A DNA stretch of 64,000 nucleotides, taken from Halichondria panicea. Its lineage: Eukaryota > Porifera > Demospongiae > Suberitida > Halichondriidae. The notes beneath the pieces are model-generated. The model searched no databases. It was given only the letters and a program-made list of their open reading frames with translations, and had not been told where the DNA came from. Positions 1 to 41,823 of the stretch are shown piece by piece. Numbering within the stretch: the stretch's first letter is position 1; every line of letters begins with the position of its first letter. Location of the stretch: positions 1,079,002-1,143,001 of the forward strand of contig NC_087393.1 of the NCBI RefSeq assembly GCF_963675165.1, written 5' to 3'. The translations under genes were made by a program, and so were the position numbers.

Positions 1-1613
1 CCCTATTTTCAGTTCAAAACACTACTCAAGGCATCAGTATATCCATCACTCCACTTTGTTCCAATGCTCCCTGTTCAACTCCGGAGGCAATCACTATCGA
101 CAATGTGTTCCTCCCTGCCGAATGCTCTCTTGCTCCATGTGATTCACACATGTTGTTCAAGAAGGAAGTGCTTAACGAGTCTTTTGTCCAGTATTTGATT
201 GGAGTGCCAGCTAATCAGTCGATGGTCATGCTAAGATTTCTGTATGAGACGACACTGCAATTGTTTGAAATGGTCGAGAAGGTTATAGCAAATCAAGGAA
301 TTGCTGACTGCAGTCCTACATCAGTTGTGCAGTTACACGAACAGTACTACACGCTGTGTGTTAATGAAGTTGACAACAATCTTCAAGTGCGTGCCATTAA
401 CAGTCTAGGCAATTTGAGTCAAGTGAGGTTCAACCCCATAACGGACATACCGATGGCCCTCCCAATAACTGCCATTTCCGTTCTCGACTACTTTGATATT
501 GTGAGACTCCTGCTTGCAAATGGACCAATATTGACCATAGTAAGCATTGGATTGCTTGAGAAAAGGTCACATCCTATTACCGAGTGTGTGGGGATTATAC
601 ACCAATTGAAGCTTCGCGATATTACTGACATTTATTCGACCATACCATACCTAGTCTATTGTGAAACAAACTACATTGTACTGGATACTTGGAGCTCTGA
701 CGATCCAAGTGTTATATCATCCCATTACTACAACGAGACTGGCTATCCTGTGATCTGTTCGAATGAAAATGGCTCTATAGTTGCTGAAATTGCTATCATT
801 CAATCTGATTTTAACAGTACAATCCACTACAGAGGCAAGGAAATCATTATACCAGGGCAAGAAATTGATCTCGAAAAAAGCGTTTGTTTTGGTGTTGAAA
901 AAAAACTGTTTTATCTCTACTCTGATTTTACACTAGGGGCGTTTCTTGTAAATTTAGAAACTGGAAACTGGATTGTTCTCTCTAGTTTATCAGCTATATG
1001 CACCAAACCACAAGTGTTTGATAATCGCTATGTTCTACTGGAAGAGGTGTTCAGTGGAAGCAATGTGACTCTACGTTTGTTTGATGTACTCGTACAAGAG
1101 TTTGTATCAGTAGTCAACATGGATCATGCTTCGAACTTTGTTCAGTTGTTACAGTTACCACAGCAAAAACCAGCAGAAAAAAATCTCACTACGGTGCATA
1201 ACATTTTCATTGGAATTGGTGCATTTCTATTCCTATTGCTGGTTGTAGTAGTTCCAGCAGTCATCATCATTGCATCACGGTGAGTCCTAATATTGTATTA
1301 TTATAATGTGTTATGATGATATTTTTTACTACACAGCCGTTGTCAGAGCAATCAGCAACCTCCCTTCAGTGTACAGGCAGATCCATCCAGTGAGATTCCA
1401 GGCTGCACGGAAGGAGAAAACGATCTAGGTTTCGGAATTGATGAAGCTGAGGACGTCCCTCAAGAAGAAGGTAATAGGGAATCTGATTCTGAAGAGCGTT
1501 CCCCTACAACTATCAGCCAAGAAGCCGACCCGACCAATGATGTATCTGATATATCTTATTTAGTACCAGGTATGGACAAAACACCAGTTACATACTCATT
1601 ATTAGCTAGCTAG
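1..1613 (+). CDS. Type I membrane glycoprotein, family B copy 1 (5' end outside window)
   Basis: Unrecognised receptor-like protein, partial. The reading frame is open from base 3. Exon 1-1279 encodes a Cys- and N-glycosylation-rich ectodomain and, at its end, a hydrophobic segment (FIGIGAFLFLLLVVVVPAV) followed by ASR. A donor (g|gtgagt at 1280) joins in phase to an acceptor (ctacacag, 1336). The second exon, 1337-1613, encodes an acidic cytoplasmic tail of about 92 residues (RCQSNQQPPF...). The ectodomain aligns with the second plus-strand gene at 7192-9045, for example QNTTQGISI versus QNTSHGISI and YYNETGYPVIC in both. The signal-peptide exon lies left of the window. The tail ends in VTYSLLAS, which fits the ITIM consensus. 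A possible further donor (cag|gtatgg near 1569) could change this C-terminus. Function unknown; cell-surface location is inferred from the TM segment. Confidence 0.75.
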
Positions 1614-2047
1614 CTGCTATTGTACATTAATTTTTTGGCTGCTAATGAACTTTTTCCTCATATATATCTACTACCATTATTTTTGTATTTTCGTTTGGCT
1701 ATAAAATCCCACCTGTCCTACCTTAAAGATATATTGGGCCCCAGGGTTTGTCCAATGAGTATATTATATAATTATTGTAACACTAACTTCACTAAAAGGA
1801 TACTAACCTCCCTAGAATCGCAATCGGAGTCATTCAAAATGGAGTCCTTTGTTGGTTTGGATATACTTACATAAATTAAGGAGGAGTGGGCATGCAAGCA
1901 ATTTGTCTGAATACGCCATCTGTATCTACCCTGTTTAAACTCATTTTTATTATGTGATGATTAACACCAATTAATTAACACTGATATATTAAAAACCTAA
2001 TTGTGTGTCAGCTGCCAACACTTAGCTAACCTAACTCATGTATTGCA
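1614..2047. other. Convergent intergenic spacer with poly(A) signal for the minus-strand gene
   Basis: This stretch separates the 3' ends of two convergent genes. On the minus strand an AATAAA (plus tttatt at 1946-1951) lies about 97 bases past the stop codon of the gene at 2048-5176 and is the likely polyadenylation signal. No other gene or repeat was seen. Confidence 0.45.
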
Positions 2048-5000
2048 TCAGTTTTCATGGTCGTTGTTGGGCTCTGGAGAATCAACATCGTTGTCTGAGT
2101 TGCTAGGTGTGGTTGGTGAGTTAGAATGTTCTGGACGGGTGTTGGTAACGTCAGCTTTCACACGATCATATCGTTCAGACAGTCTAACTCTTCTTTGCGC
2201 TACGTCTTCATATTGATCTGTGTGGTGTGCGTTGATTCCAAGAGGGAGCCCAGGGCTAACTGTATCGTGACAATGATCACACTCTTGTTGACTCCTATCT
2301 GAGAGTGGAACAGCAGTCGTTTCTTCTCCATTAAAAGTCCATCTCTCTTCATCAGATTGAACCAGAGGGCTTTCACTTTGATGTTGAGTTATCAATGTTG
2401 GTACAGAAGGAATTTCGGGTGTCACAAGTGCATTCTTATTACAATTAGATTTCACAGTTGTAGGGGTGCCAATATTCTCCTGTGTCGTTGCTACCTCCTC
2501 TTCTGCTAGTTTCAGCATTGGTGTATTGTTCTCAATAGAAGCCTGTGTAGTGCCCTGTGTAGTGTCCTGTGCAGTGTCCTGTGCAGTGTCCTGTGCAGTG
2601 CCCTGTGTAGTGTCCTGTGTAGTGCCCTGTGTAGTGTCCTGTGCAGTGTCCTGTGTAGTGCCCTGTGTTTGCTTGTCCTTGCTAATTTGGTCAGATGAGG
2701 AACTCGATTCAACTTTATTGAGAGATCCAACAGAATGATTTTTTGTGGGGAATACTGCTGACTGATTTTCTGTAAACTCATTGCTACAATCCACAGGAAC
2801 AAAATCGACGGTATTACTGTTTCTGTGCATAATAAAGCATGAATGAATAATTACTTCCTTCAAATGACAACAATTATTTGCATATTAAGTAAGTAACTGG
2901 AAAAACTTACCCAGTACAATATGTCCTACATTTCCATATTATGATTGATCCCGCAACAATTATGCTGACCAAAACAATTAAGGCAACAACAATTCCAGCA
3001 ATAGCACCGTCAGACAAAGCTTGTGCAGTTGTTTCCACAGGAACAGTGGTCATGGTGGGTGGTTGCGTTGGTTGAACAGTAAAGCACGAAAATGAATGAT
3101 TTGCGGAGAAATTCGATAACTCAAAGGACACATTACTGACATGAATTGGAGTGGATGGATCCGGACAAGACAGGTCCAATAGAGCGGAGGAGGTGGAGTT
3201 ACTGTACAGTATGAATCGATTATCAATCACTTGATGGTTGACTATGGCATCCGTCGAGAGAATAGTTGTGGAGTTCTGTAACACATCAGTGAGAGCAATA
3301 GTTCCATCAGCTGACGATCCAATAAAGTGAACGTTTCCATTTATCTCCACACAGTCACCCACATACGGAAAAGACAGATCCAAAGGGAATGGAATCACAT
3401 TGTTATTGAAACTTAAATTTCCAGCTCCAACTTCCAAAAATGTATCCCTCCTTCCAGAGCAGTAGAAGGTAATTGAATTAACGATAAGGGCAGCCTCGCC
3501 ACAGATATCGACCTCCACAGTGTTGGATCCACAGTACGCTAACAGATATCTGTCTTGAAACAAAACCACTTGCTGGGTGCCATTGTCGAAGCACTGTGAT
3601 ATATTAGTGTCCATAGAGACAAGAGGTGAATCAATATCGATCCGTAGACTGTGCAGGAATGCATTCCCGTACCAGTATAAGTTGGTACCGAACGTTGCTC
3701 CAGAACAAGTGGAATGAAAAGCTTCTGAGATATACAATGTATTCCTAGTGTTACGTCCAATGTTAGAGATGATTGTCGACTGACTCAATGTTCCAAAATC
3801 CAAAAAGATTATAAACACTTGCACAATAACTTCTTCACCGGACACAATCTCATAACACAGTCCATAGACCACGACACCATCCACTATAAAAGTAGTGAGA
3901 GCACAACTTGGTGTACCAGGAAGTGGTACAAAGTATTGTTCAATAAAGTTTAAACTAGAGGATTCTTGGTCAAACAAAGCAACAGCTGCTCCATCTCCAA
4001 CAGCAACTAAAACTGCAACTCTGGTTCCAGCCTCCTCGTAGTGTATGGTCACATGACAGCGAGTGTATCGATCCCCACACGTCTGAGATGGTAGCTGTAC
4101 ACTAGGGAAGATGACGTCAGTGTAGGTGGTATTGCCTGAGGGGATCACAGCAGCTGCTGAGATTGTCAAACTGTTGTCTGGTGATTGGATGGCATTAAAG
4201 CAATATCCAGCAGGGGTTGAAGAAGTTTCTGTGAGGAGACAAAACAATATCATTGACCTCAAAAGGTGGAATGCATGGTGGAAGTGATAAAAACCCACAA
4301 GTGATTGATGCATGCACCCAATGAACGGTTTAGGCTACATGCACAGGGATAACCATTGGCAACATACCTTCCCACTGCACTAGAGTATGTACAAACAATG
4401 ACCACACACAAAATGCCTAGTCACTATTATTAACCTGAGGCCTGTACATATGTACATGCCATGTGTACATGTGGCTGTAGACTAAACCCCAAATTAACGC
4501 TGAGGGTTTGCACTTTAGTGCTCTAGCAATGAGGTAAAATCGGCCTTGAATTTAATCGGCCTTGAATCGAGGCTAGCCATTGCTAGGTAGCTACATGCAC
4601 AAAAAGGAGCAATGAGGTAGACCTAGTTACCACAAATACCACACATACCAATAGCTAGTAAACACACCTTTTGAAGTATATTATAGCTAACCACTCAATA
4701 ACTGGATATCAGCTATGGGCTAAACATATTTACAACAGCCACAAATTATACAACAGGTGCAACTCCACTTGCTGGCCGGAGCAATGCCATGACAGACATA
4801 CACACCTTACACTGCTAGTCATGAACCAACATCATACGTATGTAGACTACATGCCGTACTGTACTGTATGACTGGCTATGGTACACCAATTAGATCTAGC
4901 CATGCATATGCGCATAGATTTACTCATGATCAAGGCTGGTCTATTGAATCAAGAAGCTACATTCATCAGATTGAATGTAGACTATTCATATGGGCTAGCT

Positions 5001-5176
5001 TTATAGCCTGCCTGTACCTGTAAGAGTTGTAGATCTACTGCATACTGAAATGTGATTCATCGTAGATCTACATATAGAGTCTACAGTAGGTTTACAAAAC
5101 TTAATAACACACCTTCACAACAAGCTCCGGTACACAGTACATACAGTACAGTCAGTCTAGGCAGCCAGTAATTCAT
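2048..5176 (-). CDS. Type I membrane glycoprotein, family A copy M1 (intact, TQDT-repeat tail)
   Basis: Three exons in consistent phase. Exon 1 (5113-5176) encodes a signal peptide, MNYWLPRLTVLYVLCTGACC. Exon 2 (2911-4228) encodes the ectodomain and a TM helix (GAIAGIVVALIVLVSIIVAG). Exon 3 (2048-2822) encodes the cytoplasmic tail. Introns are 884 and 88 bp with GT-AG ends (gtgtgtta/ctcacag and gtaagttt/tgcacag). Predicted length is 718 residues. Family hallmarks are LPSQTCGDR near the N-terminus, YVGDC, and VIDNRFILYSNSTSSALLDLSC split across positions 3165-3235. Many N-X-S/T sites suggest a glycosylated surface protein. M1 is the most diverged member of the array and has the shortest second intron. 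Its tail contains a 12-bp repeat encoding TQDT/TQGT units. No known domain recognised; ligand and function unknown. Confidence 0.8.
2541..2669. repeat. 12-bp coding minisatellite (TQDT/TQGT) in the M1 tail exon
   Basis: About ten tandem units of the form cctgtgyagtgy, in phase with the coding frame on the minus strand, giving alternating T-Q-D-T and T-Q-G-T. A shortened relic of the same repeat is at about 6240-6280 in the neighbouring pseudogene. Confidence 0.8.
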
Positions 5177-5401: not shown

Positions 5402-6790
5402 GCTACGAGTCCCGCCTAAGAGTCCCTATAAATCTTAATTACAGACTATATAATTGTTATCATGGTGTTCTTCTTCTTTTCTTTCGGCTGATCAATTTCC
5501 ACGACATAATCGAGTTTAGGCATTTTTGGTCGACACTCCACTTCACCAGAGAGGCGCTGTAGATCCGGCACCATAACATTGTTTGGTGTGCTACTTGATA
5601 TAACTTCAGAGAAAAAATGATGGCTCTGCAGAGGTAAGTTCCTCAGTAGTGATAAGTTCAGGCCTTTTTTTGATCTGAGGTGGTGGTGTTGTGTTTTTCT
5701 GATTTGTATATTCATCCACTTTCCTGTCTCTCTTTTGTAAGGTGGCTGCGTGTTCGTCAGAGTGAATATTATTGGATGGAATTAGGTTCGCATGGCCTGT
5801 TACAGTTAGTTCATTGTCGGATGCTTGAACAGGAACAAAGTGGTTCGCTCCATTACTCTTTTCAGAAACAGCGGGTGAGGACTGAGAAGCATGATGAAGA
5901 GGATCGGCATTACAACGTATTCTTGAACGTTTCTTTAATACATTAACAAACTTATTGACATCTGTGTACTGAGTCTGAGGTTCCTCAAGGGAATTGCTGG
6001 TACTTCAGAACCATAGATAAGAGTTCCACTTCTACTCTATATATCTATGGTTGAACAGCTTCCACAGCTTGCGTCTTCTTCCCTCGACTTGCCGAGTTAA
6101 TTGTGTGGTTGTATCGCTACCAGGAAGTGGGATTGTAGTCAGAGTATCGTTTGCATGCATGTGGTGGGCCACAGCTAGGACACAAAGAAAGGTAGTGGTA
6201 CATTTGGAGGGGGGTTTGCTAAAAGGGTATCCTTCTCAAAGCCTGTGCAGTGTCCTGTGTGTAGTTACCTGTGTTTACTTATCCTTGCTTCAAGGGGTAA
6301 CATGCATGAGGTACTCGATTCAACTCTATCATAATCTATATACTTTATAAACTCATTGCTACAATTAACATTATCGGGAAAGAACCAAATTGAATTCCTC
6401 ATTTCCATTTCTGTGCATAGAATAAAGACGATAGACAATCTTAAAACATTAATACGTATTATTTAATTTACCTCTTACCAATGAAGTCTTAATTGCTCTT
6501 ACTAATATCCATTTCAATCTGCAAAAACCCAGCTGATGGAGTATAACCAAAAAACGAAGACGACCCCACTAGTAAAGCCTGAGAGGGTTCTGGGTTTGTT
6601 TCCATAGGAACGGGTGGTCATGGTTGTATATGGAATAATACCCATAATTTGAGGAGAAAGTCGATAACTCAAAATACATAATACACCGCTGACATGAATT
6701 GCCCCGGGTAGGATCAAGCGAATATCAATCACTTGATGTTTGACCGGCATCTGTCGAGAGAATAGTTGTAGAGTTCCGTGTAGCAATGAG
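5402..6790 (-). pseudogene. Family A remnant with a chimeric tail
   Basis: Degenerate minus-strand copy. From its 5' side, 6790-6560 matches the end of the ectodomain and stalk (ttgatgtttgaccggcatct and cgataactcaaaatacata are corrupted M1-like segments). Then 6425-6240 matches the start of the M1-type tail, including the relic TQDT repeat and the tgcatag splice region. Finally 6230-5446 matches the tail type of M4-M7 (LSGEVECRP, MPKLDYVVEIDQPKE). Multiple frameshifts, no signal-peptide exon and no full ectodomain exclude a functional protein. The joining of two tail types shows recombination inside the tail region before or during decay. Confidence 0.75.
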
Positions 6791-7191
6791 AAAGAGACGC
6801 ACGCCATCCGTTTCCTGTGAGACTGCATGCAAAGAGATAGTCCTGGCTGCAAACTGGGACATCCTATATAAAAGACCCGAGTGAATCGACAATTGCTGAT
6901 CAATTTGTACAATAATTTTCTCAGTTTTTGACGTTTCCTTTCGATTTCACGGACTGAGGCCATGAGAATTACATGTACATGTACGGTACGTAGACCATGA
7001 AATATGATAGTTGTGGCAGTGAAAGACACAACAAATACAGATCAGTGTGGGTCATTTTGGGGGCTCCCCAGGGAAAGCCCCAAACTTCACATTAATATAA
7101 GCGTCTATATAAGTACATGTACACAACATTACGTGTACTCTCAAGACTTCGATCATTAGGAACTCTTGTGGTTAAGTAGCTACCACAAGGA
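6791..7191 (+). other. Upstream region of family B gene 2
   Basis: Sequence between the pseudogene and the start codon at 7192. Apart from the candidate TATA box at 7106-7113, nothing is recognised. A divergent promoter is not required, because the left-hand neighbour is a pseudogene. Confidence 0.4.
7106..7113 (+). promoter_or_regulatory. Candidate TATA box of family B gene 2
   Basis: TATATAAG lies 79 bases before the ATG at 7192, a spacing compatible with a transcription start about 30 bases further on and a roughly 50-base leader. Not tested. Confidence 0.35.
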
Positions 7192-9045
7192 ATGCTGCCT
7201 GCACTTGCTGGACATGCTGCTCTGAGCTTCATATTGTGTCTTTTCTGCACTGCAGGTAAGAAACTAGCTCTTTTATATAATTATGCATGATGGCCTATAA
7301 TTATGTGCAATAAAGGAATAGTATATGAGAAATATTAAGGCTTACAAAAGTTTTTTTTTTTCACCCATGCATGCATGCAGGGACTGGATTGGCATCAACA
7401 AATTCCACAGACAATACAACACTCTTACTAGAAGTCAATTCGGACATAGTTCTGTTTTCGATTCAAAACACTTCTCATGGCATTAGCATTGCAGTCACTC
7501 CTCTGTGCCCCAATCAAGATGACTGTTTTGCCCCCCAATCTCTACTAATAGACGGTATTTTCTTGCCTGAAGAATGTACGAATGTCCCCTGTAACGAGCA
7601 CCAACTTGTCATCACCAAGGCATTGGATAATAATTCTACAATCCAATATGTAATAGGAGTACCAACCGTTCAATCTTTGCTGCTGCTACGGTTCCATTAT
7701 CATGTCCAATCACATATATTTGAGCTGGTCGAGAAAGCTACTGTAAATCGAGGAATTGTTCAATACAACTGTAATCCAACAGCAATTGTGTCTTTGAAGG
7801 AGGTGTACTATACGCTATGCGTGAATAATTCTGAAAATCGACTAATTGTTCTTGAAATAGATAATCTTGAAAAATTCAGTGATGTTACCTTTAATTCAGT
7901 TTTAGAGAGTTTGGTCGATATAAACCTCCCAATAACGGACATCTCAGTGGTAACCAGACAATCGAAATTGTATATCTTGTTTGTTGGAGGATCTGAATTG
8001 ACTGCTATAGACATTGGAGTGTTTGACTTTCATTCTCAAAATTTTGTGGATTGTACTGAAATAATTTACAGAATGCGTCTACGCAATGACACGAAAAGTG
8101 ACGACACAATTCCTTACCTGCTCTACTGTAGTGAGAACTATGGGTTGATTGACATTGAGGATGACTTTAACCCACCACTGTCCTATTACTACAATGAGAC
8201 TGGCTACCCTGTAATTTGCCAAGAACGAGATGCTATCGTTGCACAGATTACAGTCTTCAAAGACGGTGTGAATAGTATTCTACGACATAACGGCACAAAC
8301 TTTACTTTACCTGGGCAAGCAATTTCATTTGAAGATAGCTCGTGTTTTGGATTCGAAGATACTCTATTGTACGTTTACAGTGACCAGGATTTAGGTACAG
8401 TAATTGTTCACTTGCAAAAGCATATTTTAAGGGAACTGCTAATTGTGAAATGTCAGCCATTAATCTATTCCTCTTCTGTGCTCAACAATCGATACGTCTT
8501 GCAGAAACAAGAGTACAGTGATTCCAACATTACTCTGATATTGTACGACATGCAACAACAAAAGTTTGTGGCTGAAACTGCAATCGAGCATTCTACAAGC
8601 CTAATACAACTGCTTGAATTACCACAGCCACAACAACCCGATTGGTCGATCAAATTTACCACCCCATTAACCATTGGAGTGGTTGTTGCGTCTATAATTG
8701 CAATTTGTGTATTGGTTATTGCAATCATCGGCAGGTAAGATTGTAGACGTTACTGAGTATCAGTTACACTACTTCATATCCCACAGGTATTGTAAAAGTC
8801 GGAGAAGAGAGATAATAAGGGAGCCACTTTTTCCACCAGGAGAGCAGGCTGAAGTAAATGCAGCACCATATGCACATGTATACAACATACCAGCCCCACT
8901 ACCACTCCCACCACTACTACCATTACCACTCCCACCACCATCACCACTACTACCACCCCCACCACCACCATCACCACTACTACCACCCCCACCACCTGCA
9001 CCACTCAATGCTGCCCCCAATAACAATCTATTAATTTTTCTCTAA
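7192..9045 (+). CDS. Type I membrane glycoprotein, family B copy 2, polyproline tail
   Basis: Complete three-exon gene. Exon 1 (7192-7255) encodes a signal peptide (MLPALAGHAALSFILCLFCT). Exon 2 (7381-8734) encodes an ectodomain of about 430 residues with many N-glycosylation sites and paired cysteines. It ends in a TM helix (PLTIGVVVASIIAICVLVIAII). Exon 3 (8787-9045) encodes the tail. Phases match: 1 base is carried over the first intron and 2 over the second. Splice sites are gtaaga/atgcag and gtaaga/cccacag. The tail starts RYCKSRRREI and then runs into long proline blocks separated by Ser/Leu, typical of SH3, WW, EVH1 or profilin ligands. Homologous to the gene at 1-1613 and more distantly to the minus-strand array (shared V-x-N-N/D-R-Y/F-V/I-L motif near the membrane). 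Function unknown. Confidence 0.8.
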
Positions 9046-9333: not shown

Positions 9334-12300
9334 TCAGTTTATTCTCTCATTATCGGGCTCTTGAGAATCACTGTGGTCAGTATGGATTAGGTTGGTAGGT
9401 ACAGATAGTGGTGAGTTAGAACATTGTGAGTCGGTTGAGGTTCTAGTAGGAGCAGTTTCCAGTGGTGGTCTCGAGTCTATTGCACCTTGAAGCTGATCGA
9501 AATGAAAAGACTTTGATTTAAGGAGAAGTTCGACGCCAGGTTCAGTCCTGTGATGTTCGGTATCTAGATGTCCAGTTTGGGAAACTGAAACTGCACAACA
9601 CTCGGCTGCTCTACTGTAATCATTGATGCTTGGATCAGCTTGAGAAGCTGTAATTGCACGACTCACACGGCTCGTAGATGTCCTCATTGTTGCAACAAGG
9701 GGAATACCATTGGCCACAATCTCAGCGTCATCATTGCCATCACGTTGGGCAGGCTCTGCAGCTACAACAGTGACACTGCTTTCTACACTTGTTATCGAGT
9801 TTTGCCGTTGTATATCGTCCTCTACAGGGTTCAAGTCTGTTCCTTGATCATGTGGATTTGCCAAATAAGCTGAACTGTCTATTTCCTTTCCTTCTTCTTG
9901 AGCTGAACCTGCTACATGTAGATCAAGTTTTGGGATTCCGTTGGGGATAAACGTATTGGGAGTAGCCCCTAACTGTGGTTGTGGTCCAGTAGGCTCAGTC
10001 ACAGTGGGGGGTCCGGGTGTTGGTTCTGTGGATGGTGGTGTATCGATGGAAGGTTCTGTGTACAATTCTTTAGTGGGCTCTTGTGTGGCAGGAATATTCT
10101 GTTCTACTGTAGTGGGTGGTTTTAACTGCTGTTCAATGAGTGGAGTTGACGCTTGTTGAGGATTTGCAGTGATCCTGCAGGGACAGGAGGATATATTATT
10201 ATTGATTAAGCTATACAACTCTTAGGACAAAATTAATATCAATTATTACAAGCTACTCAGACATGTTAGTAACAGATATATAGCATGAGACCGAGTGTTG
10301 TTTGATGAAAAAGAAATTTCATGCTATAATTATTATGTGTAACAACGACCTTTACCAAAAACATGCCTCAAGCCCGTGACCATGCAATAAAAATAATAAC
10401 TATATGTATAACACGAAAGGGACTGTATGACTTTATTACAACCTTGAAAATGTGATCATAATTATAAATAACTATATTATACAGCTTGGCCATAATAATA
10501 TATAAGTACCAATACGCAAACAAACCAATACACAAACATGTCACACTAAAAATTAGGCCACATACGGTACATGTTATTGTAGGCTATAATTGTATGATGT
10601 GCTATTAGTGACTGGAGAGTAATCCCGTATCACATCCGGTCCAGTAATCGCACGTCGTCATTGACAGTGTGCAATTACCTGTCACACTGTCAATGACAAC
10701 GTACTGTTCGAATAACGGCCGCGGTCAAAAATATTAATAAAAACTGCAGACGGAACTTCATCATGCACGATTAGTATGGCTACTCGTGCAATAAGGGATT
10801 AATAGCACTCATAACAAGCACTGGCAAGGCTACGCCTCGTCAATTAGTATCCTTGCCATTGCTTGTTACTCGTGCTATTATCCCATATTGCACTCTTAGC
10901 CATACTATTAATTGTACTATAATTATACACAGGCATGTAATAATCATCAGTGTATACAGTGCACACCATGCACATAATTATAGCAATACACAGACAATTA
11001 CAGAACTAACTTACGGAAACTTTCTTTGCTTTTTTCTTCTTTGCCTGTACCCCAGTATGCCCAGTATGGCCACAACAACGATTCCAATTCCAAACAAAAG
11101 TGTTCCAAAAATAATTCCTACAATAGTGCCACCTGAATGAGTTTGAATAGCACTACTTTCTTCTGTGAAGTCAGTTGTGTCCGTAGAAATAGTAACGGTA
11201 GTGGAGGGTGGTTGAGTTGGTTGATCGGTGAAGCAGGAAAACTCAGAATTTGAAAAGAAAGCCGACAACTCAAAGGACACATTGCTGACATGAATTGGGA
11301 TGGATGGTTCCGGACAAGACAGGTCCAATAGAGCGGAGGAGGTGGAGTTACTGTACAGTATGAATCGATTATCAATCAGTTGATGGTTCACTTGAGCGTC
11401 TGTGGCTAAAATAGTGGTAAGGTTTCCCAGTACATTGGTAAGCACAATGAAGCCATTAGTAGACGATCCAACAAAGAAAATTAGTCCTCTTATTTCCACA
11501 CAGTCACCCACATAAGGTACAGACGAATCCAAAGGGAAGGGAATCGCATAATCCATTGATGAATTTACGGTCAAATTATCACTAACTTCAAGATATGTGT
11601 CCCTGCTTCCAGAACAGTAGAATCTAGTTCTTGTCACTACAGGTTCACTTCTTTGACAGAAATCTACTTCAACAGTTATGTTATTATTGCAGTAGGCCAA
11701 TAAAGAGCTGTCGTCAAATATCACTACTTGGTGGGTTCCATTATCAAAGCATTGTTCAATGGCAGGATCACTCAAACTAATATCTTGGTCGTTGATTGAG
11801 GAGTCACTGATGTCAACTCTGAGATAGTAGAAAAATGCATTTCCAAACCAGTAGACATTGGTGAACCCAGTACAAGAAGAGAGAAAACCTCGAGAAATGT
11901 AAAAATCATAATTAGTACTTCTTGGAGCAATATAGACATCAAAGCTTGAGAGTTCCAGTTGATCAAAGTTCAACACCGTCCTATACACATTCAACAATAC
12001 TACACCATCATTGCTCGTGAATTCATAGCATAAACCATACAAAAATATGTCGTCTTGAACGAACGTTGTAAGTGAACAAGTTATGCCAGGCAAGAAGAAA
12101 AAATGCTGGTCGATAAATATCAGTCTATTGTTCAGTCTGTCAAATAAAGCAACAACAGTTCCATTTCCAACAGCCACTAAAACGGCAACTCTAGTACTTC
12201 CATCAATAGTAAAAACACTGACATCACAACGCCCATTTCGATCCCCACATGTCTGAGATGGTAGCTGTACACTTGGGAACACGACATCAGTGTAGGTGGT

Positions 12301-28621: not shown

Positions 28622-28769
28622 CTGCACGATAGCTAAATGCCGTATTTGCTACACCTGCCTGTGTTGAACAGTACACCATGCGTGGGCGGATGGATGAAAT
28701 GGATCACGTGATGAAATAGCTCTATACATAGTACACACAGTAGAGTCAGTCTCTAGGCAACCAGTTCAT

Positions 28770-29238: not shown

Positions 29239-32200
29239 CTATAAATCTTCATCACTGGATCTACTATAATTGTTATCATCGTGTTCATCTTTTTCTTTAG
29301 GCTGATCGATTTCCACGACACAATCGAGTTTGGGCATTTCTGGTCGGCATTCTACTTCACCAGAGAGATGCTGTATAGCGTCGTCATTGTTTAGTTCGCT
29401 ACTTGGTGGGTCAGGAGAATAAATAGATGGCTCTGCAGAATCATCAACAGAGGTACGTTCCTCAGTAGTGGTACGTTCCTCAGTGGTGTTAAGTTCCTCA
29501 GTAGTGGTACGTTCAGGCCTTTCTTTGGTCTGAGGTGGTGGTATGTGTTGGTTAGATGTGGCACTCTTCATCTTCTCAGCTTTGTATTCATCCACTTTCC
29601 TGTCTCTCTTTTGTAAGGTGGCTGCGTGTTCGTCAGAGTGAATGTTATTGGATGGAATTAGGTTCGCATGGCCTGTCACAGTTGAGCAATTCATTTCTGG
29701 TCCATTGTTTGGAGTTTCTTCGGATGCTTGAACAGGAACAAAGGTGTCCGCTCCATCACTCCCTTCAGAAATAGTGGGTGAGGACCGAGAAGCATGATGA
29801 GGAGGATCGGCATTACAAGGTATTTCTTGAACGCTTCTTTCAGTTTCAATATTACGAACTTCTTTACTCCAGTTTGTGGTTGGTAGCGGTGTGTCTGACG
29901 TCAGAATAGTAGCTTTATTCTCTTCTTTGTCTTGTACAGCAACAGCGTCCATTAAATGTTCAGCTGGCTCTGTTGTAGGGGATGGAGTAGATGTTAGATT
30001 GACATTTGTGTACTGAGTCTGAGGTTCCTCTAAGGGGATTGCTGGCACTTCAGATGGCGTTAACTTGTCTGTTGGTTGAACAGCTTCCGTGTCTCTAGAG
30101 CTCGCATTTTCTTGAGATTCTTGACTTGCCAAGTCTGATTGTGTGGTCGTATTGCTGTCAGTGGGTGGGGTTGGAATTGGAACATCGACGCTTGTATATG
30201 GCGGACAACGAGATGCAAAGACAGGTGGTGGTACATTTGGAGTGAGTTCGCTATCAGGTGAGGGTGGTGGGTTAGTTAACAGCGTCGGCAGCTGAGATTG
30301 TGCTAGTGATCCTTGATGATCTGAAGTAATTACAGATGGTGTCAATGGTAGCTCTTCATTGCGATGTGAGAGGCTGGCAGATTGTGACTTAAGAAAGGGT
30401 TCTGGATTTGTAAGCCTGCATGAGTATGAGAAAAATTATGCATGTCAAATACACATGTAATCAAGCATAAAATATGGGTGCAAATAGTACTTATTATTAC
30501 AATGTGATACTAACATTACTTACTCAATCTCATTAATGTCATAGCTCTTTCTTTTGCGTTTCACAATCGAAAAACAGACACAAAATACAAGCAACAATAT
30601 CAATGTCAGTAAAAGTCCAATTCCAATTAAAATCCCAGCCAGCGCTCCAGTAGTGAGACCTGTGGAGTCAACAGTCTTCGGCGAACTAGTCGTTGGCATA
30701 ACGATGATGGTATAGAGGTTGGTAGCACTGTTATTTATAGTCGTGAAAGGGCCGGTTATTGGTTCTGGGGTAGTAGTAGCATTGGTTATTGGTTCTGGGG
30801 TAGTAGTAGCATTGGTTGTTGGTTCTGGGGTAGTAGTAGCATTGGTTATTGGTTCTGGGGTAGTAGTAGCATTGGTTGTTGGTTCTGGGGTAGTAGTAGC
30901 ATTGGTTATTGGTTCTGGGGTAGTAGTAGCATTGGTTGTTGGTTCTGGGGTAGTAGTAGCATTGGTTGTTGGTTCTGGGGTAGTAGTAGCATTGGTTATT
31001 GGTTCTGGGGTAGTAGTAGCATTGGTTATTGGTTCTGGAGCATTGGTTGTTGGTTCTGGGGTAGTAATAGCATTGGTTGTTGATTCTGGGATCATAGTTG
31101 TAGCATTGGTTGGTGGTTCTACAGTGGTACTATCAGCAGCAGTGGTTACCATGGAAACAGTAGCGGTAGTGGAGGGTGGTTGAGTTGGTTGATCAGTGAA
31201 GCACGAGAATTCAGAGTTTGGAAAGAAAGCCGATAACTCAAACGAAACATTACTGACATGAATTGGGGTGGATGGATCCGAACAAGACAGGTCCAATAGA
31301 GCGGAGGAGGTGGAGTTACTGTACAGTATAAACCGATTATCAATCACTTGATGATTGACTTGAGCGTCTGTGGCTAGAATAGTGGTAAGGTTTCCCAGTA
31401 CATTGGTAAGCACAGTGAGGCCATTAGTAGACGATCCAACAAAGAAAAGTAGTCCTCTTATTTCCACACAGTCACCCACATACGGTACAGACGAATCCAA
31501 AGGGAAGGGAATCGCATAATCCACTGATGAATTCATGATCAAATTATCACTAACTTCAAGATATGTGTCCCTGCTTCCAGAACAGTAGAATCTAGTTCTT
31601 GTCACTACAGGTTCACTTCTTTGACAGAAATCTACTTCAACAGTTATGTTATTATTGCAGTAGGCCAATAGAGAGCTGTCTTTAAATATCACTACTTGGT
31701 GGGTTCCATTATCAAAGCATTGTTCAATAGCAGGATCACTCAAACTAATATCTTGGTCGTTGATTGAGGAGTCACTGATGTCAACTCTGAGATAGTAGAA
31801 AAATGCATTTCCAAACCAGTAGACATTGGTGAACCCAGTACAAGAAGAGATAAAACCTCGAGAAATGTAAAAATCATAATTAGTACTTCTTGGAGCAATA
31901 TAGACATCAAAGCTTGAGAGTTCCAGTTGATCAAAGTTCAACACCATCCTATACACATCCAACAATACTACACCATCATTGCTCGTGAATTCATAGCATA
32001 AACCATACAAAAATATGTCGTCTTGAACGAACGTTGTAAGTGAACAAGTTATGCCAGGCAAGAAAAAAAATGCTGGTCGATAAATACAATCCATTGTTCA
32101 GTCTGTCAAATAAAGCAACAATAGTTCCATTTCCAACAGCCACTAAAACGGCAACTCTAGTACTTCCATCAATAGTAAAAACACTGACATCACAACGCCC

Positions 32201-33258
32201 ATTTCGATCCCCACATGTCTGAGATGGTAGCTGTACACTTGGGAACACAACATCAGTGTAGGTGGTGGTATTGCCTGAGGGGCTCACAGCAGCTGCTGAG
32301 ATTGTTAAATTGTCAGCACTTTGGAAAGCACTAAAAAGATAACCAGCAAAGGTTTGAGAGGATGCTGCAGGGAGAACAAATTATAAATATGTTTACTTGA
32401 CCAAACACGGCATATAGTCAGATGAGGTACGACACTTTTTTTTCCATTGTGATGATGTTTGCTTAGCTGGCAGTTTATCGCAACCATGCCACTACAAACT
32501 CTAGGCTTGTAGAACGCTTGTAACCGACTGTTTAGCCAATGTCAAAAAGATTGGAATGCAATTAGAAGAAAGATCACGAGATACGTGTCGTACCACCTCT
32601 GAGGGCTAGTGGTGGAAACAATTATTATTCCCACAAGAGATTGTTGGCTTAAAATATTTATCATGCATGCACCCAATAAACCGTTTAAGCTGCATGCACA
32701 GGGACAACACTTAGCAACATGACCCTCCCACTGCACTAGTCCACTGCACTGGAATGTACTGACAATGACCACACATAAAATGCCTAGTGACTATTATTAT
32801 GAATAGCAATGAGGTAGTTACCACAAATACCACAATAGCGTATAGTAAACACACCTTTGAAGTGAAATAGTTAACCACTCAAATAAAGTATATTGGAGAT
32901 AGATTAACAGCCATATATATGTATATAAAGCGCTGGAACTCCATACATACTCTTGCTAAGCATGCACGACAAACAGTAGACTTTGTCAATGTTTTTGAAC
33001 CAACGTCTACATATTATATAGATATACATGTATATGTATGTGACACCGATTACAATGTAGGCATTCATAGATATACTCAATTGAAGCTGTATTGATATGG
33101 AATACCTAGCTTTATGCCCAGTACGTGTAATGATGTACTATGTGTGAATAAGCAGGCTGTACTGACATATGTAGTCAAACATTAATTGCTAACACACCTT
33201 CACAACCAGCTCCTGTACATAGTACACACAGTAGAGTCAGTCTAGGTAACCAGTTCAT
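29239..33258 (-). pseudogene. Family A copy M6, frameshifted in the ectodomain, long stalk repeat
   Basis: Exon 1 33198-33258 (signal peptide), exon 2 30524-32364, tail exon 29239-30415 (open, 391 residues plus stop, same type as M7). Relative to M2 and M4, two single-base losses occur close together: one in the A run near 32065 and one near 32088 (ataaatacaat for ataaatatcagt). Together they shift the frame, so the N-terminal 110 residues and the rest of the ectodomain are in different frames. Everything after 32094 is open through the TM helix (GALAGILIGIGLLLTLILLL) and tail. The stalk has an expanded 30-bp repeat. Either a very recent pseudogene or a homopolymer sequencing artefact; if the two bases were miscalled, the gene would be intact. 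Confidence 0.65.
30754..31090. repeat. 30-bp coding minisatellite in the M6 stalk
   Basis: About ten to eleven 30-bp units (attggttattggttctgggg plus tagtagtagc) encode, on the minus strand, T-T-T-P-E-P-I/T-T-N-A repeats just outside the membrane. Units alternate between two variants (ggttatt and ggttgtt), suggesting duplication of a 60-bp dimer. M7 has only one to two relic units, and M5 has a decayed version. Confidence 0.9.
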
Positions 33259-33656: not shown

Positions 33657-36600
33657 CTATAAATCTTCATCACTGGATCTACTATAATTGTTATCATCGT
33701 GTTCATCTTCTTTAGGCTGATCGATTTCCACGACACAATCGAGTTTGGGCATTTCTGGTCGGCATTCCACTTCACCAGAGAGACGCTGTATAGCGTTGTC
33801 ACTGTTTAGTTCGCTACTTGGTGGGTCAGGAGAATAAATAGATGGCTCTGCAGAATTATCAACAGAGGCACGTTCCTCAGTGGTGTTAAGTTCCTCAGTA
33901 GTGGTACGTTCAGGCCTTTCTTCGGTCTGAGGTGGTGGTGGTGTGTGTTGGTTAGATGTGGCACTCTTCATCTTCTCAGCTTTGTATTCATCCACTTTCC
34001 TGTCTCTTGTTTGTAAGGTGGCTGCGTGTTCGTCAGAGTGAATGTTATTGGATGGAATTAGGTTTGCATGGCCTGTCACAGTTGAGCAATTCATTTCTGG
34101 TCCATTGTTTGGAGTTTCTTCGGATGCTTGAACAGGAACAAAGGTGTCCGCTCCATCACTCTCTTCAGAAATAGTGGGTGAGGACCGAGAAGCATGATGA
34201 TGAGGATCAGCATTACAAGGTATTTCTTGAACACTTATTTCAGTTTCAACATTACGAACTTCTTTACTCCAGTTTTTAGTTGGTAGCGGTGTGTCTGACG
34301 TCAAAATAGTAGCTTTATTCCCTTCTCTGTCTTGTACAGCAACAGCGTCCATTAAATGTTCAGCTGGCTCTGTTGGAGGGGATGGAGATGTTAGATTGAC
34401 ATTTGTGTACTGAGTCTGAGGTTTCTCTGAGGGGATTGCTGGCACTTCAGATGGTGTTGACTTGTCTGTTGGTTGAACAGCTTCCGTGCCTCTACAGCTT
34501 GCATCTTCTTGAGATTCTTGACTTGCCAAGTCTGATTGTGTGGTCGTATCGCTATCAGGAGGTGAGGCTGAAATTGGAACATCGACGCTTGTATGTGGCG
34601 GACTACGAGATGCAAAGACAGGTGGTGGTACATTCGGAGGGGGTGGGCTATCAGGTGAGGGTGGTGGGTTAGTTAACACTTTCGGCAGTTGAGATTGTGC
34701 TATTGATCCTTGATGATCTGAAGAGATTACAGATTGGCTGTGTGGAGAAGGTGGTAGGGTAGGTAGCTCTTCTTTGTGATGTAAGGGGGTGTGTTCTGAA
34801 TGTGTATCGTCAACTTCAGACTCTTCTATCATGTCGGGCGTATTACGTAAACTGTATCGGAGAAAAATATGTGTGTAAATACATGTACGTGTAATCCAGT
34901 CTCAAATATACATAAACAGTACTTATTACTACCAATATAATTTATTACTTACACGTCCATTGGAAGCATTTGAACAGCTTCCGTGTTTCCACAGCTCGCA
35001 TCTTCTTGAGATTCTTGATGAGTAGACCATGATAAAGAGTAGCGCCTTTTGCGTTTCAAAATCAATCCCAAGCAAACACCGACACATACAAGCAAAAGCA
35101 ATAATATCAGTGAAACAAAACTTCCAACGGCAATCCAAACCACCGCTCCAGTGGTGAGACCAGTGGAGATACCAGTCGGCGGCAAACTATTCGTTGAAGT
35201 GTTAGTATCATTGCGGGTGGTCATTGTCGGTTGGCTGTCGGTATTAGTATATTCAGGTCCAGACGTGAATGGGGTGGTTGTTGGTTCTGGGGTACTGGTA
35301 GCATTGGTTGTTGATTCTGGGATCATAGTTGTAGCATTGGTTGGTGGTTCTACAGTGGTACTATCAGCAGCAGTAGTTACCATGGGAACGATAACAGCAA
35401 TGGTGGGTGGTTGAGTTGGTTGAACAGTGAAGCACGAGAACTCAGAATTTGGAAAGAAAGCCGATAACTCAAACGAAACATTGCTGACATGAATTGGGGT
35501 GGATGGATCACGGCAAGACAGGTCTAATAGAGCGGAGGAGGTGGAGTTACTGTACAGTATGAATCGATTATCAATCACTTGATGGTTGACTTGAGCGTCT
35601 GTGGCTAGAATAGTGGTAAGGTTTCCCAGTACATTGGTAAGCACAGTGAAGCCATTAGTAGACGATCCAACAAAGAAAAGTAGTCCTCTTATTTCCACAC
35701 AGTCACCCACATAAGGTACAGACGAATCCAAAGGGAAGGGAATCGCATAATCCATTGATGAATTTATGATCAAATGATCACTAACTTCAAGATATGTGTC
35801 CCTGCTTCCAGAACAGTAGAATCTAGTTCTTGTCACTACAGGTTCACTTCTTTGACAGAAATCTACTTCAACAGTTATGTTATTATTGCAGTAGGCCAAT
35901 AGAGAGCTGTCGTCAAATATCACTACTTGGTGGGTTCCATTATCAAAGCATTGTTCAATGGCAGGATCACTCAAACTAATATCTTGGCTGTTGATTGAAG
36001 AGTCACTGATGTCAACTCTGAGATCATATAAAAATGCATTTCCAAACCAGTAGACATTGGTGAACCCAGTACAAGAAGAGAGAAAACCTCGAGAAATGTA
36101 AAAATTATTACTTCTTGGAGCAATATAGAGATCAAAGCTTGAGAGTTCCAGTTGATCAAAGTTCAACACCGTCCTATACACATCCAACAATACTACACCA
36201 TCATTGCTCGTGAATTCATAGCATAAACCATACAAAAATATGTCGTCTTGAACGAACGTTGTAAGTGAACAAGTTATGCCAGGCAAGAAGAAAAAATGCT
36301 GGTCGATAAATATCAGTCCACTGTTCAGTCTGTCAAATAAAGCAACAACAGTTCCATTTCCAACAGCCACTAAAACGGCAACTCTAGTACTTCCATCAAT
36401 AGTAAAAACAGTGACATCACAACGCTCATTTCGATCCCCACATGTCTGAGATGGTAGCTGTACACTTGGGAACACGACATCAGTGTAGGTGGTGGTATTG
36501 CCTGAGGGGCTCACAGCAGCTGCTGAGATTGTTAAATTGTCAGCACTTTGGAAAGCACTAAAAAGATAACCAGCAAAGGTTTGAGAGGATGCTGCAGGGA

Positions 36601-37353
36601 GAAAAACATGTTTGTTTATTACTGAGTTTACCGAGTCCATTTATTTGACCACAAAGGGGGTGGAATTGACTAGTGGTGAACCGGTGAAACAAACCCACAA
36701 AGAAGAGATTGGTTGTCTTGTGTGCATGCAATAAACCACTAACTGTAAATATGTAAAGCTCAGTATTATGTATAAATTATACATGTACAGGTATAATGAA
36801 ATAACCGACTTAGCAACCCAACTGAAAATACAAATGTACGGGTGTGGTGATCCCACACATAAAATGCCGAGTCACTATAATGAGTAATCAATGAGGGTAG
36901 TTACCACAATTACTAAACAGTAAACACACTAAATTTATAACTAGATCTAAGTTTCTAAGTTCAAACTGTGCTACAAGAAAATAATGGGCTATATTCCTAT
37001 AAGGGATACACTGACATGGCAGATTGTATCTCGCACAGACTTACAACAGCAATATAAATACACGTACTTCTTTCTAGCTAGCTGTATTACTCTGCAGGAC
37101 ACACGTACTTACAGGAACATGTTTTTCACGTAACGTACGTAGATATGTTATTCAAGGCTGCCATGGTCAATCAATCGCTGTATCTGATGAATTTATAGAT
37201 ACGGAATCTCATGCTAGCTTTATAGCCTTGTATATATCTATGACTTGTGTCAGTTTACACAAAACTTGTTATTAATAACAAACCTTGACAGTACGCTCCT
37301 GTACAAAGTAGAAAGACATACAGTACAGCCAGTCTTGATAACCAGTAAATCAT
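33657..37353 (-). CDS. Type I membrane glycoprotein, family A copy M7 (intact, largest)
   Basis: Exon 1 (37284-37353) encodes a signal peptide (MIYWLSRLAVLYVFLLCTGA). Exon 2 (34953-36591) encodes the ectodomain, a Thr-rich stalk, a TM helix (GAVVWIAVGSFVSLILLLLL) and a juxtamembrane segment. Exon 3 (33657-34851) encodes a long tail. Sizes 70, 1639 and 1195 give 968 codons, 967 residues, all phases consistent (gtttgttatt/ctgcag; gtaagtaa/gatacag). The juxtamembrane part contains HQESQEDASC...TEAVQ, a duplicate of a motif found again inside the tail (SQESQEDASCRGTEAVQ). Tail sequence was evidently copied into exon 2. The tail is rich in Pro and Ser/Thr and ends MPKLDCVVEIDQPKEDEHDD. This is the outermost copy; its signal-peptide exon differs from M2-M6 and resembles M1. 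Confidence 0.82.
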
Positions 37354-37995: not shown

Positions 37996-38032
<37 letters not shown>

Positions 38033-38216
38033 CCTTTATGGCGAAACGAGTAGTTAAGGTAAGTACAAACTGGTAGACAGATATAAATCGAAATCTAAGT
38101 AAGGTAAAGATATGAAGAACAAACATATAGCTATGCGCATGCGCAGTTACTAGTTGCTATAGCTTCAGAACTGAGAGTAGTCTAAAAATTAAAGCAGGGA
38201 AACTTCAGAGGATACC
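37354..38216. other. Intergenic region with a 33-base T run
   Basis: Boundary of the receptor array. Contains inverted pieces around 37632-37710 (agcatacccatgaaaatac ... tgatgggtatgct) and an uninterrupted T run at 37998-38030, which may be the poly(A) tail of a minus-strand retrocopy or part of a repeat. No gene recognised. Confidence 0.5.
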
Positions 38217-38810: not shown

Positions 38811-39396
38811 CATGTACGTTTTTTAAGTTTCATTTGATGGATATGTAAATTTTGACTCACTTTATAACTATTATTAAATTTTAATGGATATTTCACAATG
38901 CTCAATCTTTGAAATTCTAAAATTTAATAGATGTATCCATGAATTTCCCATGAAAAGCAATGATGCCGTAGTTTGATTTTCCATCTGCTTTTCATGGGTG
39001 TGTAAAATTTTCAGCTGGTCTATCGGGCTGTGAAATGCACATGATTTTTAATGGGTATTTCACATTTCATGGTATGTACTATCCTTGAAATTCTTAATTT
39101 TAATGGGTGTTATCAATGATTTGCCTATGAAAAGGCAATTAAGTCATTGTGATTAATCCATAACATTTTCCCTGAAAAATAATGGATATGCACCCAACAG
39201 TACAGTGCTAGCTCTCTGAATGAAAAATGACCTGTACATTATCAAGAGTCATTAGGAAGAGCAGAGTTCGAGTAGTGTATGACCATAGATGAAGGAAATA
39301 GTCATTTCAATGTATGGTTCATGCATGATACATGAATTTTTGCTGTAAAAGGGTTAATATAAATATAAAATGACACACACGAAAAAATAAGAATCA
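38811..39396. repeat. AT-rich diverged tandem repeats downstream of the small gene
   Basis: Two diverged units of about 170-190 bp (38878-38975 and 39048-39155) share ttaatgggtatttcacat-, ccttgaaattct- and cccatgaaaagcaa-like blocks. Related words (catgaaaatac, gatgggtatg) also occur around 37640-37710. Likely remnants of an interspersed repeat. Confidence 0.5.
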
Positions 39397-41823
39397 TTAG
39401 TTGGTAGACAAGGAGAATTCACAATTGATAGGTAGTGTGTTAGGATCAGTAGGTACAGGCATCCCGACATCATTGTCAGGTGTAGGACTCCTGTCCGCTG
39501 GTGAAAGGGTTGGTATCCTGCTAGGAGGATGAGGATCATTGATCACATGAGTTTGTTGTAAGGACAACCCTGGAGATGCTGACCTTGGCAGGACAATAGT
39601 GGGGCAATCCATCTCTTGACTCGACGTAGACTGTGAATGATGCAAGACCGCCAATTCAATGGCTGTGGGGCAAAATAATCCAGTCAATTCATTATTAACC
39701 ATCACAGCTTGATATCACCTCAAATAAACATAAAATGTATATCTAGTGTACCTCTTTCATGGTTTTCAGGGGTGTTGTTGCCATTGAGCAAGGCCGCTTG
39801 ACTGTTAGCAGAGTGATCCTCCCTCCCTCCCTGAGCCTCACCGCCAACCTCTTGTGTCGGCCTTAGAACAAATAATAACAGTGTAAGACTTACAATGTGC
39901 ATGCAATTAACAGAGACGTGACTGCATGTGTACCACTATATTGCTCACCTACTTCTGGCCATTCGCTTTTTTACCCAATAACACAGGCAAACTGCAATGA
40001 AGACGACAGCCAATACAACGACGACAACAAATCCACTCAGTCCAATTGAAAGACCAAGGGCGAGCTGTTGTCGATCAGTATAAACTGCTTCACCCGGTGG
40101 AGGAGAAGTCTCATTGTTCGGCTTATCTTGAGAGGTGGCAGCTGTTGTTTCTGCAGGAGTAGTCACGGGTTGCTGGTCAGGACAAGAAAAATCTGGATTC
40201 AACTCGAATGTGGCCAGAAGAAATGTTTCGTTGCTACTGAATTGCTGTGAGTGACAAGCGAGGTCTTGGACGACAGAAACGGTTGAATTACTGAACAGTA
40301 ACACATGACCATCAATCAGCTGGTGATTGATTTGCGCATCGTCAGCGAGAATGATTGTTTGATTGTCCAGAAGGTTTGTGAGTGCAATGCTACCGTCTCT
40401 CGAAGTACCAATAAAATACGCGGCATCTTCAGTCAATGCACAATCACCGACGTATCTCTCCAACAAGTTCAATGGATGAGGGATCACATGATCTAACAAT
40501 CCGGGTGACACCAGCGCTAAAGTTTTATTTCGTTGTTCAATATAAACGCCTTGAGGGCAGTGAAACCTCGTTTGAGTTCGCTTAACGCCGACTTTCATTT
40601 CCCCACGACCGCTCACGCTGATGTTGATCAGATTGTTCTCTGAGCAATACACTAGCAGATTATTTAAGTCTCTCGATTGCCTCACGTCCGTCACATTGTT
40701 CCCAAAGCATACACTCCTGTTGGAGTCAGCGTAAAAATGTTCAGCCGATGAGAATGAATTACCATTACCGGGTAGAACAGTGAATAAGACTTCATCGTCA
40801 AACCAGATCACACGACTGTCACTAACTAAATCAACACTAGAGAAGAAGATCGGAGATAGGCCAGTAGAGTACGATTGATACGGGGTATCAATATTGTCGT
40901 TCAGCAGCGATAGGGACGACTGGTTCAAAGTCTCAAAGTTGATGTGAACTTCGAACAACCATAAATCTACTTCAAAACGAGCAAGTGGAGTAAAGCGAAC
41001 ACACGATACCACACGTCCATTGTCTGATGGGTTTTTTGCGATGGAGGTGAAGCTACAGTTGACCTCTTCTTGCGGGCCAAGGACAAACTGGTCTATTAGG
41101 GTCAGCCTATCACTGTTTATGCCAGCAAATAGTGCCAGAGCAATTCCGGCTGAATGGGGGACTATAGCCACTTCTCTGTTGTTTGGAGTGTCTTTGATTA
41201 GGGTAACACGACATCGCCACAATCGATCACCACAAGTGCTAGGGAGATATGCCTCAGGGAATATTGCGTCACGTTGTATAGAAATATTGGTTGAGATTAG
41301 ACGAGCGGATACCACCAAACCATTCGAGGACTGTTGAACAGTAAATTGAGTACCTAATGGAGACGAACCTGCAGTGAGAGAGAATACTACATGAATGGGC
41401 TCGTACTAGCTGGGCGTGGCCCGGCCTCCGTTCTGACAGATGACCGGGGGACACGCTTATAATTATAGGAGAGAGACTACAATAGTGCATCATGAATATA
41501 ATTATAAACCGTATCCAGTTATGAATATTGTTATCTGCACTCCTCAGCACAAACCCTATATAAATGTGTCCCCCAGCCATCTGTCAGATGCAGAGAACGG
41601 GGGCCGGACCACGCCCAGCTAGGCTCGTACTGTACGTCTGATAGATCTAGTCTAGTCTCTTCTATTCATGATCTAGCGAGCATTCATGATGTAAACATGT
41701 ACTCTACTGTGTTAGATCTACATTTCTATACACTGTACGTACTGACTACGTACCTTGTAGCTGAGCTCGAGCATTGATCACAACAGTAAGAGAAAACAAC
41801 AGCACAGTAGGAAAGACTTCCAT
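39397..41823 (-). CDS. Type I membrane glycoprotein, family C copy C1 (intact)
   Basis: Four exons. 41754-41823 encodes the signal peptide (MEVFPTVLLFSLTVVINARA). 39949-41368 encodes the ectodomain and TM helix (GLSGFVVVVVLAVVFIAVCL) with YWVKKRMARSR. 39752-39861 and 39397-39662 encode the tail. Sizes 70, 1420, 110 and 266 give 622 codons, 621 residues, phases consistent. Clear homology to family A: LPSTCGDRLWRC versus LPSQTCGDRNGRC, ERYVGDC versus PYVGDC, DAQINHQLIDG versus DAQVNHQLIDN, LLFSNSTVSVVQDLAC versus LYSNSTSSALLDLSC. Many N-glycosylation sites. The tail is split over two exons, unlike family A, and is Pro/Ser-rich. It lies directly downstream, on the same strand, of a serine carboxypeptidase gene with which it is duplicated. 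Confidence 0.82.

Follow-up and report, generated by a model that had tools for sequence, protein, structure and literature searches.

A tandem array of receptor genes with alike ectodomains and varied tails in the sponge Halichondria panicea

We analysed a stretch of 64,000 nucleotides (nt) of the sponge Halichondria panicea (C17:1079002-1143001, where C17 is contig NC_087393.1; hereafter the window) in a 131.5-Mb assembly of 39 contigs, the one assembly on which all results are based. The window contains a tandem array of genes for single-pass surface receptors, seven of which, termed family A, lie on the minus strand between 2 and 37.4 kb as judged by tblastn and gene models. A repeat search likewise places A-type blocks at seven places and groups them as a family of seven members. 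Across most of these copies the exon that encodes the ectodomain is kept alike, while introns, stalks and cytoplasmic tails differ. We tentatively read the array as a locus of receptors with a shared head and varied stalks and tails, organised much like paired immune receptors, a reading to which we give a little under an even chance.

A sequence-only reading of the same DNA had listed at least seven A copies plus one remnant, two B genes and two C genes, and had described a layout of signal-peptide exon, single exon for ectodomain and transmembrane segment, and tail, with variable stalks and exchanged tails. Repeats, tblastn and gene models bear out the inventory and add a fragment of a further C gene; moreover, B2 turns out to be cut by the window edge. 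The spliced models agree with the claim that four A copies are intact and three are broken, and together with segment identities they confirm the layout. That the genes form an unrecognised tandem family of single-pass surface receptors, shaped by birth and death of copies, is upheld as well.

A shared ectodomain exon and exchanged tails

Over the ectodomain, all ten pairs of A2, A3, A4, A6 and A7 are 95-97% identical, and A5 is 94-95% identical to each of these five copies over the first 1200 nt of exon 2. The segments on either side behave differently. A 281-nt stretch of intron 1 before exon 2 is 97-98% identical among A2, A3 and A6, but only 66-67% identical between these copies and A4. 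The stretch at the same position in A7 reaches 43-46% against A2, A3, A4 and A6, compared to 41% in one shuffled control, and the start of intron 1 is 43-52% identical in pairs that include A7. Downstream of the ectodomain, the stalk and transmembrane segment is 96% identical between A2 and A3 and 78% between A4 and A7, with 45-58% in the other eight of the ten pairs (A1, in which the marker motif was not found, was left out of this comparison). The tail exon of A2 is 41-57% identical to those of A3, A4, A6 and A7, which are 83-92% identical to each other. Finally, the tail of A3 starts like that of A2 and continues like that of A4, a sequence we call type III. Judged by these identities, tails have been swapped among the A copies.

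The tract over which A7 resembles A6 and A2 opens 15 nt upstream of exon 2 and closes in the stalk or close to it; in the comparison with A6 it spans 36606-35275. Inside the exon, 33 two-state informative sites in six copies define 17 different splits, and 315 of 528 site pairs are incompatible. Conflict between nearby sites is lower than in 99% of 5000 permutations, 0.9% of which reached the observed clustering. Since the exon is alike, its flanks are divergent and sites within it conflict, we read the ectodomain exon as spreading among the copies, through gene conversion or through exchange of exons, with the head at the centre of the process. Purifying selection alone was rejected as the cause of the alike exons: synonymous divergence between A7 and A2 is 0.055, whereas an adjoining stretch of intron is 45% identical (41% in one shuffled control).

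Selection on ectodomains and tails

We calculated pairwise ratios of nonsynonymous to synonymous divergence (dN/dS) by the Nei-Gojobori method. The values are whole-domain averages between copies and are approximate, since gene conversion acts on these copies. Heads are constrained by purifying selection between copies in families A, B and C and in two relatives, D and E, described below. The ectodomain ratio is 0.23-0.45 in A (ten pairs of A1, A2, A4, A7 and the open part of A6), 0.34 for C1 and C2, 0.25-0.31 in D (three pairs), 0.19-0.52 in B (six pairs) and 0.26-0.51 in E (three pairs). No diversifying selection on the ectodomain is seen in these whole-domain averages between paralogues of A to E, which span 0.19-0.52. 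Tails evolve loosely and are near-neutral, with ratios of 0.76-0.87 for A4, A6 and A7 (three pairs). The earlier description of the family as fast-evolving therefore fits only the tails and stalks, the only loose parts of the proteins; it does not fit the ectodomain, which is constrained in five families and homogenised in A2-A7.

These values bear on the proposal that the array is an allorecognition locus, that is, a set of highly polymorphic receptors telling colonies apart. The array has traits of such a locus: its related surface receptors are clustered, some copies are broken, copy number changes and copies exchange sequence. The Hydractinia allorecognition complex and the Botryllus fuhc and fester loci are clusters of type-I receptors with copy gain and loss. 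However, the heads of the Hydractinia and Botryllus receptors are highly polymorphic, whereas those of the array are conserved among copies: A2, A4 and A7 differ by a dN of only 0.025-0.032, at a dN/dS of 0.29-0.45, and the D and E heads are likewise constrained. Allorecognition would call for diverse heads, the comparison here being one between copies in one assembly. Purifying selection on the ectodomain and, in A2-A7, its homogenisation by conversion are unlike what would be expected if the heads distinguished individuals, and we regard an allorecognition locus as decidedly improbable. Tandem arrangement of receptor genes does not in itself point to diversifying recognition; in this array it is the sameness of the head that is maintained.

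Layout of the receptors

A1, A2, A4, A7, B1, C1 and C2 were modelled in full, and the other members are known as ectodomain frames only. All seven models begin with a signal exon and a phase-1 intron; a single exon then encodes ectodomain, stalk and transmembrane segment, and after a phase-2 intron comes the tail, which in C1 and C2 contains one extra intron. The predicted proteins have a hydrophobic N-terminal start (by eye) and one transmembrane stretch. Their ectodomains carry 9-14 N-glycosylation sequons and 10-13 cysteines, and the stalks consist of Thr/Pro sequence. The tails measure roughly 84 to 430 amino acids (aa), 34-45% of which are S, T, P or E; that of B1 ends in polyproline, and those of A4 and A7 contain proline runs. 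The peptide QTQYTNVNL is common to the tails of A5, A6 and A7, and its tyrosine is lost in A3 and A4. Eight transmembrane windows were inspected for a charged residue, by which paired receptors can recruit an adaptor; a single Arg lies near the inner end of that of A4, and the other seven carry no charge. A retrotransposed or viral origin of the array was rejected, since its genes are spliced and have signal exons.

Receptors of this build could also be pattern-recognition receptors for microbes, whose head would recognise a conserved structure on microbial surfaces and whose tails would lead to uptake or defence. The tandem genes, the many sequons of the ectodomains, the Thr/Pro stalks and the tails rich in S, T, P and E suit this idea, as do a genome rich in SRCR domains and a conserved head, which is what a conserved ligand would call for. 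The ectodomain, however, has no convincing match to a lectin or enzyme family. On balance we consider this explanation unlikely.

Fold of the ectodomain

In agreement with the sequence-only reading, Pfam searches detected no immunoglobulin (Ig), SRCR, LRR, FN3 or Calx-beta domain in the seven window ectodomains or in nine members of the wider family. Of ten window proteins searched, the seven with an ectodomain gave only sub-threshold names (podoplanin, VSP and others), which lie in the stalk or transmembrane segment. For the nine family members, the best value was E 0.003 (Env-gp36), followed by a phage protein (0.019), Arylsulfotran_2 (0.099), which we take to be a propeller, and DUF4691 (0.2), each in one member. 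The propeller sequence families in Pfam (WD40, Kelch, NHL, sema, FG-GAP and others) gave no match above cut-off. Against PDB sequences the best values were E 0.45 in the sequence search and E 1.3 in the profile search. The profile search of the ectodomain, which the earlier reading had suggested, has thus matched no known family in Pfam or PDB sequences.

A structure search, suggested there as well, gave a qualified answer. AlphaFold2 modelled the A7 ectodomain (35378-36607, minus strand) from seven sequences as nearly all beta, with a mean predicted local distance difference test score (pLDDT) of 45 and a predicted template modelling score (pTM) of 0.45. The model of B1, built with six relatives, has repeated four-strand runs, a mean pLDDT of 55 and a pTM of 0.57, and its ten-residue blocks 81 to 170 reach a pLDDT of 77-89. 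In Foldseek searches of the PDB at E <= 0.001, A7 gave 9 matches and B1 60, the best at 1.4e-5. Among the 50 matches listed per model are semaphorins, the EPTP domain of LGI1, WIPI2, Rae1 and other WD40 proteins; oligopeptidase B, LRRK2 and royal jelly protein 1 also occur among the matches listed. The recognisable entries contain beta-propellers, a judgement that covers rows naming a protein rather than only a large assembly. The neighbours recognised in these low-confidence models, at template modelling scores (TM-scores) of 0.13-0.38, suggest that the ectodomain is probably a cysteine-rich beta-propeller of about seven blades.

The sema domain of semaphorins and the EPTP domain of LGI1 are extracellular propellers and occur among the Foldseek matches listed for the A7 and B1 models. 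The array ectodomain differs from both in having no Pfam or PDB sequence match and in its own seven invariant cysteines. Among the papers listed in literature searches we recognised no propeller receptor family in sponges. Sponges do have expanded recognition genes, such as those for aggregation factors and for SRCR and NLR receptors (PMC5450542); the array is likewise expanded, but its proteins have no Calx-beta, SRCR or NACHT match.

Relatives of the receptors in the genome

The sequence-only reading had named A, B and C as families. These are branches of one family, and the array continues outside the window on both sides. The A and C ectodomains are 32% identical. The link between A and B is weak: BLASTP found no match between B1 and A7 (best E 0.42), and comparing the A and B profiles gave a collinear alignment of 311 columns with E 0.011 and a probability of 3.8%; A and B also have intron phases and cysteines in common. 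So, with A and C 32% identical and B remotely related, the three are best described as branches of one family in which B is, on sequence, a remote relative.

A search of the sponge's own genome, like all genome searches here a source of lower bounds, found two further B genes and two D genes on C17, a third D gene and three E genes. It also found a family F member at C17:1018236-1019585, accompanied by remnants, and family G, a relative on another contig (C10:4838532-4839941) that was found once. Single sequences link D to B at E 4e-7, D to E at 5e-6 (searching a 154-kb region), F to D at 0.005, E to G at 4e-26 and G to A7 at 9e-4. In 154 kb, a profile built from families A to D matched the three E open reading frames (ORFs) with E-values between 9e-13 and 1e-10; once family E had been added, it matched F (6e-16, in 224 kb) and G (2e-28, in 20 kb). 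Ectodomain copies in the genome number at least seven in A, four in B, three plus two fragments in C, three each in D and E, and one each in F and G. Families A to F make up a cluster of about 144 kb, with F at one end and the last C at the other.

When nine members representing all seven families are aligned (15-44% identity to the first), nine columns are invariant, and seven of these are cysteines. Five of the seven families (A, C, D, E and G) have a CG[DE] motif with a second cysteine five residues on; the corresponding position is CGR in F and lacks the glycine in B. No relatives were confirmed in GTDB genome contigs with an A/C query (128 pattern-matching stretches), or in viral contigs with A/C (167 stretches) or B (32 stretches).

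Comparison with paired receptors

CEACAM and CD300 are paired immune receptors in which the extracellular region is alike through conversion and the tails differ. Together with the Siglecs they belong to the Ig superfamily and have known signalling motifs, whereas the array proteins have a probable propeller and motif counts that are not above chance. For Siglec-11 and Siglec-16, which resemble the array in combining a near-identical extracellular region, due to gene conversion, with different cytoplasmic tails, conversion is reported to have affected the region of the ligand-binding exon, and the two receptors are reported to bind glycans similarly (PMC5701461). In the array, too, ectodomains are alike among copies and tails are different. 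The locus is more like one of paired receptors than like an allorecognition locus with polymorphic heads, and since a constant head with varied tails is the look of paired receptors, we prefer a set sharing a ligand over an individual-specific one.

In the paired-receptor reading, the proteins are type-I single-pass receptors that have one ectodomain fold in common, with stalks of different lengths and different cytoplasmic tails. In the A copies the ectodomain exon stays alike through gene conversion and purifying selection, and the parts around it, namely introns, stalks and tails, are exchanged and drift. Homology, the anatomy of the genes, tail exchange, purifying selection and homogenisation centred on the exon are seen in the data, whereas the propeller fold, the common ligand, the different signals and an immune or cell-recognition role are inferred. 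In the simplest function for such a design, several receptors may bind one ligand, be it a self glycan, matrix or a microbial surface, and this common ligand could cause different signals, or none, to be sent into the cell, in an immune or cell-recognition role. If so, the array would be a good, compact place to look for cell recognition in a sponge, and would show that a shared head can be combined with different tails outside the Ig superfamily as well. That an early-branching animal independently evolved a non-Ig paired-receptor system, with a propeller head spread by conversion, exchangeable stalks and signalling tails and at least six families in one cluster, is a bolder claim that we put forward as rather doubtful.

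Several observations weigh against the paired-receptor reading. The tract over which A4 resembles A6 and A2 starts about 170 nt before the exon, in the intron, and the A4 signal exon is 95-97% like those of A2, A3 and A6; for these two reasons the exchange is not strictly one of a single exon. Moreover, a 63-nt piece of the A7 intron is 84% like A6 and A2, three of the seven A copies are broken, and conversion among young tandem copies occurs without any function too. The signalling motifs of the tails are leads only, since their number is no better than chance: immunoreceptor tyrosine-based inhibitory (ITIM-like) motifs occur in two of eight tails (A4 and B2), a number reached by 23% of shuffles, a switch (ITSM-like) motif in one (A7; 19%) and a loose activation (ITAM-like) tyrosine pair in one (A1; 5%). 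As to the fold, the models are of low confidence and based on seven sequences each, much of each is unfolded, which goes with the low TM-scores over the query, and poor all-beta models may by themselves return propeller matches.

Part of this evidence suits a plainer explanation, in which ordinary adhesion or glycocalyx proteins are recent tandem copies that were homogenised neutrally, and tail differences are by-products of unequal exchange. Purifying selection on the heads, near-neutral tails, the broken copies, other recent duplications in the region and signalling motifs near chance level would all be accounted for, as would the reach of the A4 tract into the intron. Neutral exchange should, however, leave random tract ends, whereas the A7 tract stops 15 nt short of the exon with intron near the shuffled level beyond it. 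We hold this explanation to be quite unlikely.

Gene models of the array

The four intact A genes have complete three-exon frames. A1 (2048-5176) encodes 718 aa in exons 5176-5113, 4228-2911 and 2822-2048 and has a tail of type I; A2 (9334-13290) encodes 761 aa in exons 13290-13230, 12398-11015 and 10174-9334, with a type II tail. A4 (18674-22675; 870 aa; exons 22675-22609, 21318-19785 and 19685-18674) and A7 (33657-37353; 967 aa; exons 37353-37284, 36591-34953 and 34851-33657) both have type III tails. A remnant of an A-type tail exon, found by tblastn, lies at 5450-5953 on the minus strand, and a nearby ORF at 6514-7041 shows degenerate ectodomain traces (by eye only).

The broken copies are A3 (13621-18351), with a 1-nt deletion near 17155 and a 4-nt insertion near 16690; A5 (23003-28769), in which a transposon splits the signal exon, exon 2 has several indels and the tail lies in two frames; and A6 (29239-33258), with two 1-nt deletions at about 32086 and 32064 and a type III tail. 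Stretches of T coincide with or adjoin some of the one-base lesions of A3 and A6, and these could be assembly errors; such an origin is harder to assume for the lesions of A5 and for the 4-nt insertion of A3. The element within exon 1 of A5 is a DNA transposon (26729-28726) with 16-nt perfect inverted ends and a gene for a YqaJ-type nuclease. Inside the stalk of A6 lies an in-frame 30-nt tandem repeat (30694-31188) that encodes a TNATTTPEP(I/T)-like unit.

Both B genes are on the plus strand. B1 (7192-9045) is intact and encodes 558 aa in exons 7192-7255, 7381-8734 and 8787-9045. In B2 (1-1613) the ectodomain-transmembrane exon starts left of the window and runs to 1279, and the tail exon spans 1337-1613. 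On the minus strand, C1 (39397-41823) is intact and encodes 621 aa in exons 41823-41754, 41368-39949, 39861-39752 and 39662-39397, and C2 (60110-62434) has an open four-exon model of 569 aa (exons 62434-62368, 61929-60549, 60445-60390 and 60315-60110). The C fragment (55359-55681, minus strand) is a frameshifted N-terminal part of a C ectodomain.

Neighbouring features and genome context

Repeated exons of serine carboxypeptidase, with outer limits set by eye on the basis of ORFs and repeats, lie beside the C genes and the C fragment at 42175-45777, 56176-59821 and 63344-64000; all four ORFs assigned to them contain Peptidase_S10 in Pfam. A segment of about 21 kb, duplicated in tandem at 99% identity, runs from window positions 42379-64000 onward to C17:1164569, in blocks C17:1121380-1133011 against 1142278-1153880 and 1133658-1143528 against 1154701-1164569. 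This duplication, to which a third C gene beyond the right edge of the window is due, may be a real, recent event, or else a second haplotype that was wrongly placed in the assembly.

At 49221-51452 on the minus strand lies a possible gene for a small secreted repeat peptide, with REQYY-like units and a signal-peptide-like start (by eye), two ORFs of which had no convincing Pfam match. A weak protein-kinase fragment is found at 55079-55306 (Pkinase, E 1.7e-4, below the family cut-off). Elsewhere in the genome there are at least 10 matches to Wnt and at least 17 to Bcl-2, 15 of the latter over the cut-off and 11 of the 17 clustered on C3 at 0.86-1.62 Mb. Genes of the Wnt and Bcl-2 families mark the genome as that of an animal, and the great abundance of SRCR domains is consistent with a sponge, though no proof of one. 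Searched against the PDB, the Bcl-2 and galectin proteins matched entries named mostly Bcl-2/Bcl-xL and galectin. SRCR domains give at least 213 matches from 150 scored of 1364 candidates, on contigs C3, C2, C5, C11 and C16.

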